From: an uncultured Poribacteria bacterium
GTDB lineage: Bacteria > Poribacteria > WGA-4E > WGA-3G
DNA length: 64,000 bases
Reading direction: 5' to 3'
Assembly: GCA_951812525.1 (NCBI GenBank)
Contig: OX638316.1
Location: 1,252,506 to 1,316,505, forward strand
The notes below the pieces were generated by a model. That model worked only from the letters and a program-made list of their open reading frames with translations. It was not told the origin of the DNA and searched no databases. Shown piece by piece: positions 31,487-37,558 of the stretch (position 1 is its first letter; each line of letters opens with the position of its first letter). The position numbers and the translations under genes are program-made.

Positions 31487-32221
31487 CTATAGACGATCTC
31501 CAACAGCCAACTCAGCAGTCTCTCGCTTCTTTCCAACGTGGATCGCAACAATTCCGAATGTTTTCCGATAGAACTGCACATCTACCAGTCCACACTGTTC
31601 CATAATACCCTTCAAGGCATCGCAATTCGGGAACTTCATAACAGAACGCGGAAGATACCCGTACGCATCGTCCTCACTCCCAGAGATACGATTTCCGATG
31701 AAGGGTAGGATCTTCGTGAAATAGAAATAGTAGAGCCCTCGAAACAACGGATTCGCAGGCTGCGTAAATTCCAATATAACGATCCTACCACCCGGTGCAG
31801 CAACGCGCGTCATCTCGCGTATCCCCATCTCTAAATCCGAGACATTCCGAATCCCGAAACCGACAGAGACAACGTCAAAGGTATTATCTAAAAAAGGAAG
31901 AATGAGGGTATCCGCTGCCAAGAAGCTTGTGTCTATGCTCCGGTGCTTCCGCTCCACCTTTCGATCACCGATAACCAGCATCTCAAAGCAGAAATCTGAA
32001 GCGATAACGAACCCTTGTGCCGAAATTTTATCCGCATAAGCAAGGGCAAGTTCACCCGTACCGGTGCAGACATCCAACACTTTGCTCGTCGGTGCAACCT
32101 CACTCACTTTGACCGTCTCGCGACGCCAACTTCTGTCGCGTCTGAGACTTAACAGTGAGTTGAGAAAGTCGTAGTAACGCGCGATAGCTGAAAATAGGTT
32201 TTTTATTCGGTGTGCCTGCAT
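31487..32221 (-). CDS. ubiE: Demethylmenaquinone/2-polyprenyl methyltransferase
   Basis: A 244-residue class I methyltransferase of the UbiE/MenG family, the last step of menaquinone (or C-methylation in ubiquinone) synthesis. The start MQAHRIKNLFSAIARYYDFLN is the family N-terminus. The SAM motif is VLDVCTGTGELALAYA, with GFGIRNVSDLEMGI and FGIVAIHVGKK near the end. The ATG at 32221 is 17 bases after pheT with GAGG close by; the in-frame region further upstream is inside pheT and was rejected. Coupling to pheST places it under the T-box. A UbiA/MqnP-type prenyltransferase at 25176 would supply the substrate. Confidence 0.93.
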   Translation of the reverse strand: MQAHRIKNLFSAIARYYDFLNSLLSLRRDRSWRRETVKVSEVAPTSKVLDVCTGTGELALAYADKISAQGFVIASDFCFEMLVIGDRKVERKHRSIDTSFLAADTLILPFLDNTFDVVSVGFGIRNVSDLEMGIREMTRVAAPGGRIVILEFTQPANPLFRGLYYFYFTKILPFIGNRISGSEDDAYGYLPRSVMKFPNCDALKGIMEQCGLVDVQFYRKTFGIVAIHVGKKRETAELAVGDRL

Positions 32222-32237
32222 AACCTCGATCGCCCAA

Positions 32238-34634
32238 CTACATCCGCAATTCTGCCCCGAGTTCCTGATTGAGGCGTTTGACAACCTTATCGTGAAGGGC
32301 ATTCACAGCCTTGTCTGTCAAAGTCTCATTTGCCGAATGATAAACAATAGTGTATGCAAGACTCTTTTTGCCTTCAGGAACCTGTTCCCCCTCATAAACA
32401 TCAAACAGACGAACCGATTCTACCCATTCGCCGCCCGTTGTGTAGATGAGCTCTATCGGCATATTTGATAACACCATCTTATCTAAAACAATAGCGAGGT
32501 CGCGCTCAACCTTCGGGTAGATAGAAATCGGCTCAAAACTTTTGGCAAACACAGCCACATCCACTAACGCTTCAAGGTCAAACTCAAAGAGATACGCCTT
32601 ATACGGCAGATCATAATTTTCGAGCACCACTGGATGTGCTTCTCCGAAGGTACCGACCGGCTTCTCTCCTAACAACACCGCTGCATTCCGTCCAGGATGG
32701 AAGGTCGGTACGTCGGTTTTTTGCAGTGTGTATTCGGTAATACCACACGCCTCAAGCATTCCCTCCACGAGTCCCTTGATATCGAAGAAATCTGGGCTTC
32801 GATAGGGGTTACCATAGATCCCATCACCAATCTGTCCAGCGAGAATACCCGCAATCCGTTCCGGTTCCTTCTGATCACCATCTCGAACAAAAACGCCACC
32901 TATCTCAAAGAGCCCGATAGTGTTGATTTGGTGATTCCGGTTGTGTTGTGTGTTTTCGAGCAAACCCGGTATCAGCGTTGTACGGAGCAACGACATTTCT
33001 GGACTCAACGGATTTCGTAAAGGTACAGCATCTCGAAGCGGATTGTCCGACGCCAAACGAATCTTCCCAAAGCAGTTGGGATCACAAAAACTATAGTTCA
33101 CAGCTTCCATCATGCCGGCAGCCAAGAGAAAATGCTTTAGACATCTGCGCACCTCTACCTTGGGGTCCGATGCTGGAACAGGAATATCGCCTTTGGGCAA
33201 CGTCGTCGGAATATTATCGTAGCCGTAGACACGCGCAATCTCTTCGATGAGGTCAATCTCACGGGTAATGTCAGATCTGAACGTCGGTATGGTAACCTGA
33301 TAAGCGCTTCCAGACGCTTCCACATCAAAACCGAGCCGACTCAAAATTTGTTCCATCTCTGTCGCTTCAAGCTCAGTACCCAATACGAAATTGACCCGAT
33401 CCGGACGAAATTGAATCTCCCGCAGGGGTTCTTCCCCCGGATAGACATCAACAGTGCCTTTACAGACAGTTCCACCTGCCAATTCGGCGATAAGCTGCGC
33501 CGCCCGATCAAGCGCAGCGAGGACAGCTCCCGGATCGGCACCGCGTTCAAATCTGTACGAAGCTTCCGTGTTTATCCCTAATGCTTTCGCGGTAGCACGA
33601 ATACTCGAAGGATTAAAATACGCGCTTTCCAGCAATACATCACACGTCGTTTCTGTGATCTCCGAATCATATCCACCCATAATTCCAGCAAGTGCCACAG
33701 GCTTCTCGGCATCAGCAATGACAAGCGCGTCAGTGGTGAGTTCGCGATCAACCTCGTCAAGCGTTGTTAGCCGTTCATCGTCTGCTGCGCGCCGTACAAC
33801 GATGCGATTCTCCGACAGTTTGTGATAATCGAAAGCATGCAGCGGCTGTCCATATTCCATCAAGACGAAGTTAGTAACATCAACAATGTTGTTAACAACG
33901 CCGACCCCAACAGACTCAAGACGCTGCTGCAGCCATGCTGGAGATTCCGCCACTTTAACGCCCTGAATAACACGGGCAGCATAACGTGGACAGAGATCAG
34001 GCGCATCAATTGTTACAGAAGTTAGATCCCGAATATCGGTTTCGTTCTCCTCCAAATCGACACGAGGCAGCTTCAACGGATTTCCCGTCTCCGCACGGAT
34101 TTCGCGAGCGACACCAATAAGACTCAGACAATCCGGACGATTCGGTGTAACCTCAAGTTCAAACATGACATCGTCCAACCTAAGAGCTTCAGTAAGAGGC
34201 GTACCGACGGATATATCCGCGGATAATTCCATCAGACCTGCGGCATCCTCAGAGAGTCCTAACTCTTTTTCAGAGCAGAGCATTCCCTGTGAAATTTCGC
34301 CTCGCAGTTTCGCAGACTTGATTGTCAAACCGATAGGCAATGTTGCACCGATGGTTGCGACGGGTGCGAACATACCCTCTCGGACATTGGGAGCACCACA
34401 GACAATCTGGAGGAACTCCGCTTCGCCGACATCCACCTGACAGAGAACGAGTTTATCGGCGTTTGGGTGCCGTCCGACAACGTCTACCCTGCCAACGACT
34501 ATCCCGTCTAACCCGGTGCCGAGTTGTTTGATGGCTTCAACCTCAACACCCAACATTGTTAACCGCTCGGCGAGTTCGTTTGGAGAAAACTCAAAATCAA
34601 TGTAAGTTTTGAGCCAATTTAAGGTTACGTTCAT
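32238..34634 (-). CDS. pheT: Phenylalanyl-tRNA synthetase beta subunit
   Basis: The 798-residue beta subunit, full length. It has an EMAP/tRNA-binding domain (about 40-150, [19 protein letters not shown]), the B3/B4 editing region (about 210-370), the B5 domain, a catalytic-like domain, and a C-terminal FDX-ACB anticodon-recognition domain ([15 protein letters not shown], about 707-721). It pairs with pheS (59 bases upstream) to form the alpha2-beta2 enzyme that charges tRNA-Phe and hydrolyses mischarged Tyr-tRNA. ubiE follows after 16 bases. The operon is controlled by the T-box in front of pheS. Confidence 0.98.
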
Positions 34635-34693: not shown

Positions 34694-35710
34694 CTAAAAC
34701 TGACGCAAGAACCGGAGATCGTTCTCATAAAAGGTCCGAATATCAGGGATACGGAACAAGAGATTCGCGATTCGTTCCACGCCCATGCCGAACGCAAATC
34801 CTGTAACTTCATCGGGGTCGTAGTTCACCGCTTCAAACACCGCAGGATCCACAGCACCCGCACCAAGGATCTCAACCCATCCGGTGCCGCCACAACTCCT
34901 GCATCCCTTTCCTTGACAGACAGCACAGGAAATATCGACCTCAGCACTCGGTTCTGTAAAAGGAAAGAAATGTGGACGGAAACGCATCTGTGTCTGGTCG
35001 CCGAACATCTGCCGAGCGAAGGAAGTCAAAACGCCTTTTAGTTCACTAAAAGTTGCGTGTTTATCGACGAGAAGTCCCTCTACCTGATGGAACATCGGTG
35101 TGTGGGAAACATCGTAATCCACCCGATAGCATTTACCCGGCACTATAATACGGAGCGGAGGTTTCTGATTTTCCATGGCGCGGATCTGAACAGGCGATGT
35201 GTGGGTCCGTAGAAGATGCCCATCCGTTAGGTAAAAGGTATCGTGCAAGTCACGAGCCGGATGATCGGCAGGTGTATTCAGCGCATCAAAGTTGTAATAC
35301 TCTGTCTCCACATCCGGGCCTGTCACCACATCAAACCCCATCTGCCGAAAAATCACTTCAATGCGTTCTAATATCTGCATCACAGGATGCGCTTTTCCGT
35401 AAGCAGGCTTGCGTCCAGGGAGGGTGATATCAACAGATTCCGCGTCAAGCTGCTGTTCCTGCTGCTGGCGATGCAGTCTCTCTGTTACGCTGTCAAAGGC
35501 TTCTGTGAGCGCGGCTCTCACCTCATTGGCGAGTTTTCCGATCTCCGGACGCTCTTCTTTAGAGAGTTTACCCATGCCCTTCATGACATCTGTCAATTTT
35601 CCTCTGCGTCCAAAATACGTAATCCTAAGCGACTCAAGCGCGTCAAGTGTTTCAACCTCTTTTAAAGCCTGAAGAGCTTCTGTTTTGATTGCCTCTAATT
35701 CTGCTTTCAT
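34694..35710 (-). CDS. pheS: Phenylalanyl-tRNA synthetase alpha subunit
   Basis: The 338-residue alpha subunit of the class II synthetase. It has an N-terminal coiled coil for tRNA binding (residues 1-85), then class II motifs: HPVMQILERIEVIFRQMGF, HTSPVQIRAM, the PGKCYRVDYDVSHTPMFHQVEG region, and FAFGMGVERIANLLF (motif 3). A zinc-ribbon-like insert (CAVCQGKGCRSCGGTGW, about 262-278) is as in other bacteria. The start is MKAELEAIK with AGAGG five bases upstream. A palindrome and a T-box terminator precede it, so transcription depends on the T-box, and it is transcribed on from rplT. Confidence 0.98.
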   Translation of the reverse strand: MKAELEAIKTEALQALKEVETLDALESLRITYFGRRGKLTDVMKGMGKLSKEERPEIGKLANEVRAALTEAFDSVTERLHRQQQEQQLDAESVDITLPGRKPAYGKAHPVMQILERIEVIFRQMGFDVVTGPDVETEYYNFDALNTPADHPARDLHDTFYLTDGHLLRTHTSPVQIRAMENQKPPLRIIVPGKCYRVDYDVSHTPMFHQVEGLLVDKHATFSELKGVLTSFARQMFGDQTQMRFRPHFFPFTEPSAEVDISCAVCQGKGCRSCGGTGWVEILGAGAVDPAVFEAVNYDPDEVTGFAFGMGVERIANLLFRIPDIRTFYENDLRFLRQF

Positions 35711-35733
35711 ATTTACCTCTGCTCTTTGTAGGA

Positions 35734-35749
35734 GGGATTTCCAAATCCC
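35734..35749. repeat. Small palindrome GGGATTTCCAAATCCC
   Basis: A 16-base palindrome in the spacer between the T-box terminator and pheS. It has the same TTTCC core style as 2273-2290 and 25055-25077 and is likely a mobile REP-like unit that landed in the leader. Confidence 0.65.
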
Positions 35750-35769
35750 GACTGCTATCATCACAACCG

Positions 35770-35833
35770 AAAAAAACGCCCATCACTTCGCTCCATAAAG
35801 ATTAATTTCCTTATGGGGACGAAAGCAATAGGC
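35770..35833 (-). terminator. T-box terminator hairpin of pheS
   Basis: Read on the minus strand, GCCTATTGCTTTCG pairs with CGAAGTGATGGGC, continuing inward as CCATAAGG with CTTTATGG, followed by GTTTTTTT. This is a long stem with one bulge and a strong U-run, a classical intrinsic terminator. Its 5' arm contains CTTTCGTCCCC, which is also the 3' arm of the T-box antiterminator, so the two folds exclude each other. Confidence 0.88.
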
Positions 35834-36025
35834 ATCTACTTCCGCGGTACCACCCCGCTTGACAGATCAATAAAATCTGCCCGCTTCATTATTTTTTCAC
35901 CCCGTCCTAGTAACGGACGGGACCTTGGCTCCAGGATGAAATTCGGCAGTTGCTCTCAAAATCGCGCTTCCAGCCGATGACGCGATATCTCTGGTTGAGA
36001 GGTCTCAACAGCTTACATGTGTCCC
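35770..36025 (-). ncRNA. T-box riboswitch controlling pheST-ubiE (tRNA-Phe)
   Basis: The minus-strand leader between rplT and pheS has all T-box parts. Stem I base is GGGAC (36021-36025) pairing with GTCCC (35919-35923); its upper helix has ATCGCG/CGCGAT with a GGCTGGAAG apical segment. A TTC triplet (35938-35940) in GAATTTCATCC on the 3' side is a fitting phenylalanine specifier. Stem III is CCGTCC/GGACGG (35902-35920). The T-box sequence GGGTGGTACCGCG is at 35842-35854. The antiterminator forms as GGGG-[TGGTACC]-GCGGAAG with CTTTCGT-CCCC, exposing the TGGT bulge to the tRNA NCCA end. Uncharged tRNA-Phe should favour it over the terminator and switch on pheS, pheT and ubiE. Confidence 0.92.
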
Positions 36026-36081
36026 TTCACAGCCTTTGATGAACTGATTTTTAATGTGAAATGCACCGACAGTGCATTCAT

Positions 36082-36429
36082 CTATCCCTTTGCGAGGGTG
36101 GCAAGTTGTCCAAAACCGGCTTCATCGTTCACAGCGATGTCGGCGAGAACCTTTCGATCCAACTCAATTCCAGCCGTTTTAAGTCCGTGTATGAATCGAC
36201 TATAAGAAAGTCCGTGCAATCTGGCGGCGGCGTTAATTCTCGCAATCCAAAGTCGTCTAAAATCGCGTTTCCGTGCGCGCCGATGCGCGTAGGCATGATT
36301 CCACCCTTTCTCGACCGCCTCTACAGCGGTGCGCCTGAGGTTGTTTCTGCCGCCACGGTAACCTTTGGAATGCTTGAGAATGCGGTTACGCCGTTTGCGT
36401 CGCACATTCCCTGTTTTTACTCGTGCCAT
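36082..36429 (-). CDS. rplT: 50S ribosomal protein L20
   Basis: The 115-residue L20, needed early in 50S assembly, where it binds 23S rRNA. It starts [19 protein letters not shown] and contains the [21 protein letters not shown] and [17 protein letters not shown] regions, as in all bacterial L20. The basic N-terminal extension is intact. ATG at 36429 is used; an in-frame TTG three codons upstream would sit nearer to AGGAG but breaks the invariant N-terminus. It is third in infC-rpmI-rplT, the standard order, with the pheS T-box 57 bases downstream. Confidence 0.98.
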
Positions 36430-36531
36430 TTCAATCAAACTCCTATCGCGAACATCAATGTTAGTCAGTAACGATCGCGTCCACTATTCTGCCCCGGTGC
36501 GTATGGAAAATAAGGGTCCGAGCACCCACTT

Positions 36532-36726
36532 CTACTGATGAATTAGACGTTTCAAACGTTTCTCATTACTCGGATCGACTATAGTAGCTTGTCGCAACCT
36601 ACGCTTCTGTTTCGCTGACTTTGAGAGGAACAGGTGACCAGCGTAAGCGCGATTACGGCGAATTCTGCCTTTCCCGGTGAATTTGAAACGTTTCGCCGCG
36701 CCTTTATGCGTTTTAATTTTTGGCAT
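36532..36726 (-). CDS. rpmI: 50S ribosomal protein L35
   Basis: The 64-residue L35: MPKIKTHKGAAKRFKFTGKG, then a basic RRNRAYAGHLFLSKSAKQKRR stretch, the full family length. The start has AAGGA about 8 bases upstream. A 22-base repeat copy (36756-36782) lies in the 113-base gap to infC. Confidence 0.98.
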   Translation of the reverse strand: MPKIKTHKGAAKRFKFTGKGRIRRNRAYAGHLFLSKSAKQKRRLRQATIVDPSNEKRLKRLIHQ

Positions 36727-36839: not shown

Positions 36840-37385
36840 TTACGAAGATTTCGGTGTGAGGGTCATCGACATAATACGTGTTTCCATCCGCGGTGGCTGT
36901 TCCACATCGGCAATTTCTTCAAGCTCATCTTTGAGCCGTGAAAGCAAATTTCTGCCAAGGTCGGTATGGAGCATCTCGCGCCCCCGGAACCGGACAGTCG
37001 CACGGACCTTCCAGCCATTCTTCAGGAAATCCTCAACATGTCGTTTCTTGAACTGGTAGTCGTGTTCCGCTGTATCCGGACGGAACTGCATCCCTTTTAA
37101 AACAACCTTCGACTGTTTCTTTCGAGCCTCGCGCGCCCGTTTGTTTTTCTCATACTGATACTTCCCGTAGTCTATAATCTTACAAACGGGAGGAGTCGCA
37201 TTCGCTGAAACTTCTACCAAATCCAATCCAACTTCTTCAGCAAGTTTCATTGCGTCACGTGGCGACATAACACCGACTTGCTTGTTCTCATGATCTATCA
37301 GTAGAATCTCTCGGGCTCGAATCTGATGGTTTGACCGACTCTGTCTCTCTGTCGTTCTCTGAGTACGTTTGCCTCTGTAGTGTAT
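36840..37385 (-). CDS. infC: Translation initiation factor IF-3
   Basis: IF-3 keeps ribosomal subunits apart and checks start codon and initiator tRNA. Both domains are present: the N-terminal part to about residue 80 (NKQVGVMSPRDAMKLAEE, VCKIIDYGKYQYEKNKR) and the C-terminal part (RPDTAEHDYQFKKRHVEDFLK, RFRGREM). I place the start at ATA (37383-37385), six bases after a GGGGGTG that can pair fully with anti-SD CACCUCC using one wobble. The protein then opens IHYRGKRTQ, matching the length and GKR-Q start of E. coli IF-3. TTG (37400) and GTG (37394) in frame are alternatives, but they lie before or inside the Shine-Dalgarno. Non-AUG starts in infC allow feedback control. Confidence 0.93.
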   Translation of the reverse strand: MHYRGKRTQRTTERQSRSNHQIRAREILLIDHENKQVGVMSPRDAMKLAEEVGLDLVEVSANATPPVCKIIDYGKYQYEKNKRAREARKKQSKVVLKGMQFRPDTAEHDYQFKKRHVEDFLKNGWKVRATVRFRGREMLHTDLGRNLLSRLKDELEEIADVEQPPRMETRIMSMTLTPKSS

Positions 37386-37558
37386 TTTCCACACCCCCAA
37401 GTAAAGGCGCTGCTACGCGCTGCTAAGAGCGACGAACTTATCCACCGCTCTACAGTATACGAGATAAACTCTATCTACAAAACGTTTTACATCTACTCGG
37501 ACATCGCGAAGCACGCAATAGGCGTGATTGCAAGCTTGACATCCGCATGAACTAGTTA

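Follow-up and report, generated by a model that had tools for sequence, protein, structure and literature searches.

Genomic context of the leader

The window, i.e. the whole stretch of 64,000 nucleotides analysed here, is taken from a source genome consisting of one contig (5.06 Mb), the PheS of which is 82-97% identical to PheS from 28 Candidatus Poribacteria MAGs. The minus strand carries, in order, infC, rpmI, rplT, a leader, pheS, pheT and ubiE. All six encoded proteins score over NCBIfam cut-offs, with TIGR01032, TIGR00001 and TIGR00168 forming the set for rplT, rpmI and infC.

36840-37400, minus strand: infC, over the NCBIfam cut-off
36532-36726, minus strand: rpmI, over the NCBIfam cut-off
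36082-36432, minus strand: rplT (L20), directly upstream of the leader, over the cut-off
34694-35710, minus strand: pheS, phenylalanyl-tRNA synthetase alpha subunit (TIGR00468, 344.6 bits, cut-off 237)
32238-34634, minus strand: pheT, phenylalanyl-tRNA synthetase beta subunit (TIGR00472, 892.8 bits)
31487-32221, minus strand: ubiE/menG quinone methyltransferase (TIGR01934, 226.9 bits, cut-off 158; NF001244, 225.9 bits, cut-off 216)

The gap from pheT to ubiE is only 16 nt, and pheT then ubiE follow pheS in 25 of the 28 loci of the family to which the window belongs (f1). From this gap, the adjacency and the conserved order, we infer that ubiE may share the control of the synthetase genes. L014, L017 and L019 differ from other family members in having no pheT after pheS. 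A palindromic repeat, GTCGGGATTTGGAAATCCCTCCTACA, occupies 35727-35752, past the T-box terminator and ahead of the pheS ribosome-binding site; 111 copies are present in the genome (up to 3 mismatches), compared to none for the reversed control.

The leader (minus strand, ~35770-36039) was found to match the T-box model RF00230 over its full length (model positions 1-219) at 35812-36039 on the minus strand, with 75.1 bits and E = 1.6e-16 in an E-value search of the leader. This score is beneath the curated gathering score of 93, and Rfam at the gathering threshold yields no match anywhere in the window; the absence of stem II probably accounts for much of the low score. As stem I has its base at 36033-36032, the 5' limit is better set at ~36033-36039 than at 36025. 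Matches in the leader to the Rfam models mir-1, SNORD79, RAGATH-25 and SNORD60, all sub-threshold, were discarded as chance, the mir-1 match overlapping the terminator hairpin.

Anatomy of the T-box element

The elements that could be assigned, from stem I to the terminator, are as follows.

35928-36033, minus strand: stem I (RF00230 alignment; compensatory changes among 22 relatives in helices 1-5)
36033-36022 / 35937-35928, minus strand: base pairs and K-turn of stem I
35992-35988, minus strand: AG bulge of stem I, AGAGA; the specifier loop and middle helices are also present
35975-35968, minus strand: distal loop of stem I, GGCUGGAA
35940-35938, minus strand: specifier UUC (Phe) in the context GAA-U-UUC-A, read from the sequence
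35901-35921, minus strand: linker hairpin CCCGUCC-GUUACUA-GGACGGG at the site of stem II and IIA/B (linker comparison)
35886-35882 and 35860-35859, minus strand: flanks of stem III, the purine motif AAGCG and AA, respectively
35861-35881, minus strand: stem III (helix 6; paired in 100% of cells, with both-sides changes in 3 of its 7 pairs)
35815-35856, minus strand: antiterminator, GGGG/CCCC and GCGGAA/UUUCGU around the 7-nt bulge UGGUACC (helices 7 and 8 paired in 22 of 22 relatives)
35843-35855, minus strand: T-box sequence GGGUGGUACCGCG, invariant in the alignment of 22 stem-II-less leaders
35770-35836, minus strand: intrinsic terminator with seven Us at 35776-35770 (-30.3 kcal/mol, z -6.6)

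The UGGU of the bulge (35852-35849) is complementary to the 3' ACCA of tRNA-Phe. A tRNA-Phe(GAA) is encoded in the genome, and its discriminator A is complementary to the U of UGGU. The 5' strand of the terminator, UUUCGUCCCC, is drawn from the antiterminator, and the two structures thus exclude each other. The terminator is paired in 87.9% of cells in relatives, compared to at most 54% when slid. The window terminator contains bulges and was missed by a consensus terminator scanner; its folding and its conservation both speak for it. The element matches the published T-box description (PMC7583486) in its K-turn, AG bulge and distal loop, in a stem III preceded by AAGCG and followed by AA, in the bulge UGGUACC, and in the GCG/CGU start of helix A2 including the G-U pair.

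A preliminary description of this DNA had called the T-box complete. This holds for the full-length RF00230 match, the UUC specifier, stem I, stem III, the antiterminator and the terminator, and fails for stem II and the IIA/B pseudoknot, both of which are absent. The TTC specifier, the GGGUGGUACCGCG T-box and the mutually exclusive terminator with seven Us were all located at the locus as described. The element had also been placed inside the infC-rplT operon; it in fact sits after rplT, between rplT and pheS.

This is the operon position, rplT/pheST, held in Escherichia coli by the pheM attenuator (PMC5371410), which is under control of tRNA-Phe charging, as is predicted for the element here. 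A leader-peptide attenuator of the pheM kind would be read by the ribosome, whereas direct binding of tRNA by the RNA is predicted here. The leader contains no Phe-rich frame, the short frame beginning in the linker having 1 Phe in 17 codons, and the features that are conserved are T-box features; leader-peptide attenuation is thus highly improbable.

Loss of stem II in the clade of the window

The window and 34 other leaders (genera g1 and g4) were labelled stem-II-less, with neither a UGAA...AGUA S-turn nor a IIA/B pseudoknot found between stems I and III. Most of these relatives have a single-stranded linker of 9-17 nt (66% A) instead, and the nearest relative, L004, has only a 12-nt A-rich linker, without the hairpin seen in the window. 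An origin of this hairpin as an interspersed repeat was rejected, as it occurs in a single genome copy. Stem II and IIA/B are both kept in the sister genus g2 (L186, L195) and in other families, and the genomes with stem-II-less pheS leaders still have stem II in their ilvB T-boxes. Stem II itself is paired in 94% of cells in 10 full-length leaders (at most 44% when slid), with covariation in these 10 not significant compared to shuffles. In a PheS tree with stem II labels set by eye from the linkers (automatic labelling overlooked some full forms and gave others the wrong label), all stem-II-less leaders fall within one clade (support 98/88), with g2 as its sister. Hence, one loss is the simplest history, and the tree supports a single loss of stem II in the clade of the window.

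Covariation was determined for 22 leaders, all from the stem-II-less clade. In these, 97.6% of the cells of the proposed structure are paired, against 49% or less after sliding. Of its 43 pairs, 15 have changed on both sides; shuffles gave 5.1 (sd 1.7), and none of 500 was as high. Because all 22 leaders lie within the stem-II-less clade, these both-sides changes most simply postdate the loss, and the remaining structure looks to have been under selection within this clade.

Other related leaders have lost more. Between rplT and pheS, L019, L030, L223, L226, L228, L231 and L237 carry a terminator only, the tRNA-sensing part being deleted, and L224, L227 and L232 are partial. Several close relatives thus keep the terminator without the sensor, suggesting that regulation is dispensable in some lineages, and the stem-II-less form could itself be a step toward decay. 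A decaying element would, after the loss of stem II, bind tRNA-Phe too poorly and act as a constitutive or weak terminator separating rplT from pheS. The loss of stem II and IIA/B in the clade of the window is in keeping with this, as are the partial leaders and the first six of the terminator-only leaders named above. However, decay sits poorly with the 15 pairs in which both sides have changed, most simply after the loss, and with a specifier and T-box that are invariant throughout the stem-II-less clade, given that relaxed elements would drift. We therefore consider decay unlikely, and favour a functional T-box.

The apical loop of stem III carries a hairpin repeat, GTAGGAGCGACC...GGTCGCGA, in the pheS T-boxes L008, L011, L013, L014, L017, L018, L021 and L033, and a different, longer insert in L007 and L199. 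From these sequences, the loop would seem to tolerate inserts.

Distribution in Poribacteria and beyond

A T-box was detected in 79 of 85 genomes of the phylum (E <= 0.001) and in 55 of the 56 good-quality genomes, mostly as two per genome: one for pheS (UUC/Phe) and one for ilvB (GUC/Val). The 90 classified loci comprise 38 before pheS, 47 before ilvB and 5 without automatic assignment, among which L180 is a pheS leader separated from pheS by an inserted gene and L150 resembles ilvD (by eye). The inserted gene (L024 2426-3784 / L180) encodes 452 aa, lies between the pheS T-box and pheS, and may be under tRNA-Phe control. Nearly all fetched pheS-type T-boxes sit between rplT and pheS, and every readable specifier of the pheS leaders of the phylum has the form GAA-N-UUC. 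In family f4 genomes, pheS no longer adjoins rplT, and no T-box was found before pheS.

Of 49 ilvB-type specifiers, 48 are GUC (Val) and one is AUC, and tRNA-Val(GAC) is present. The second T-box of the window genome, L001 (G000:C1:3309847-3310141), precedes ilvB and scores 105.4 bits, i.e. over the Rfam cut-off. It belongs to the same genome and family as the pheS element, from which it differs in having a GUC (Val) specifier, a stem II and an F-box.

A spacer between rplT and pheS with an ordinary terminator might resemble a T-box by chance, as the score beneath the Rfam gathering threshold would allow. Such a resemblance is contradicted by the E-value and the covariation, and the same element with a matching specifier recurs at this position in different families of the phylum; the comparative data already refute chance. 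The preliminary description had proposed a Phe T-box outside the Firmicutes, with an Infernal search and conservation in related genomes as checks. The Infernal match is significant, though beneath the gathering score, the readable pheS leaders of the phylum all carry a UUC that matches tRNA-Phe, and the discriminator A of tRNA-Phe(GAA) faces UGGU; the proposal is upheld on each count.

T-box riboswitches are known mainly from Gram-positive bacteria. A 2008 survey reported them from five phyla (PMC2494555). When 50 genomes reached via more distant PheS matches were searched, T-boxes were found in only six MAGs/genomes, labelled Clostridia (2), Actinobacteria (2), Candidatus Oleimmundimicrobium (1) and Poribacterium (1). 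No paper joining T-box riboswitches and Poribacteria was found in the open-access literature that was searched; within that literature, Poribacteria is a phylum new for T-boxes.

Proposed mechanism

We propose that the element is a transcription-terminating tRNA-Phe T-box, acting as a switch inside the operon, with infC-rpmI-rplT before it and pheS-pheT-ubiE after it (probability roughly 87%). It is a real T-box with reduced architecture, and mechanistically it would be an ordinary one. What is established here is the anatomy of the element, its specifier, conservation and covariation, the tRNA match and the operon position; tRNA binding, its dependence on charging, read-through out of rplT and the control of ubiE belong to the predicted mechanism, which would proceed as follows.

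A promoter scan of the spacer between rplT and the leader revealed no sigma-70-like promoter. A promoter of its own for the T-box after rplT was hence rejected, and the polymerase probably comes from rplT. Arriving from there, it would transcribe stem I, the UUC specifier of which would pair with the GAA anticodon of tRNA-Phe, with the AG bulge and distal loop touching the tRNA elbow. With uncharged tRNA, the 3' ACCA would pair with the UGGU bulge and hold the antiterminator, allowing transcription of pheS-pheT-ubiE. With charged tRNA, the shared UUUCGUCCCC strand would instead join the terminator, and transcription would end after rplT. As stem II and IIA/B are absent, the element would, like glyQS, rely on stem I and the stem III/antiterminator domain, connected via the linker.

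In other T-boxes, stem II and IIA/B strongly increase tRNA affinity. Three points count against the proposed T-box switch: the score under the gathering value of 93, the disappearance of the affinity-raising stem II and IIA/B despite an A-U-rich codon, and the loss of the sensor in several close relatives.

Comparison with known T-boxes

The canonical class I T-box (B. subtilis tyrS type, RF00230) shares with the window element a long stem I with specifier loop, K-turn, AG bulge and distal loop, as well as stem III, the T-box antiterminator and a competing terminator. In contrast, the window element lacks the stem II S-turn and IIA/B pseudoknot that define class I, and its host belongs to the Poribacteria, not the Firmicutes. 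Natural stem II deletion variants are B. subtilis glyQS, termed "class II" (PMC10482949), and the non-glycine C. acetobutylicum alaS (PMC4695836). Like these, most poribacterial relatives have a single-stranded linker in place of stem II and IIA/B; the window linker differs in holding a short hairpin, and the specifier UUC, forming two A-U pairs, differs from the G-C-richer GGC or GCU. The long stem I and flexible linker of glyQS-like class II are present, with stem I distal elements kept and the linker A-rich in relatives, whereas class II as described in PMC10482949 is glycine-specific and the specifier here is UUC (Phe).

A sample of short Clostridial T-boxes, with downstream genes identified by eye from how each reading frame begins, contained leaders lacking both stem II and IIA/B before aspS (L137), thrS (L252) and also glyS, as well as leaders lacking only stem II before hisS or thrS (L247, L248, L253). 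These examples and alaS (PMC4695836) led us to reject uniqueness of stem-II-less non-glycine T-boxes, and the architecture thus has precedents. To these the Phe/UUC case adds a stem-II-less example that spans a clade and has an informative sister group. It is somewhat more probable than the opposite that the whole clade reads tRNA-Phe with a T-box lacking stem II and IIA/B, by means of a weak specifier, the A-U-rich UUC. A stem-II-less T-box with an A-U-rich UUC:GAA codon strains a published account of stem II dispensability.

Reduced T-boxes of this kind escape the Rfam gathering threshold. The predicted tRNA-sensing attenuator occupies the slot in the operon that a leader peptide fills in E. 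coli. The full T-box, the stem-II-less form and the terminator-only form, all within one phylum, constitute a natural experiment on which parts are needed. Furthermore, the finding adds an uncultured, sponge-associated phylum to the users of T-boxes, where their occurrence is phylum-wide and not sporadic.
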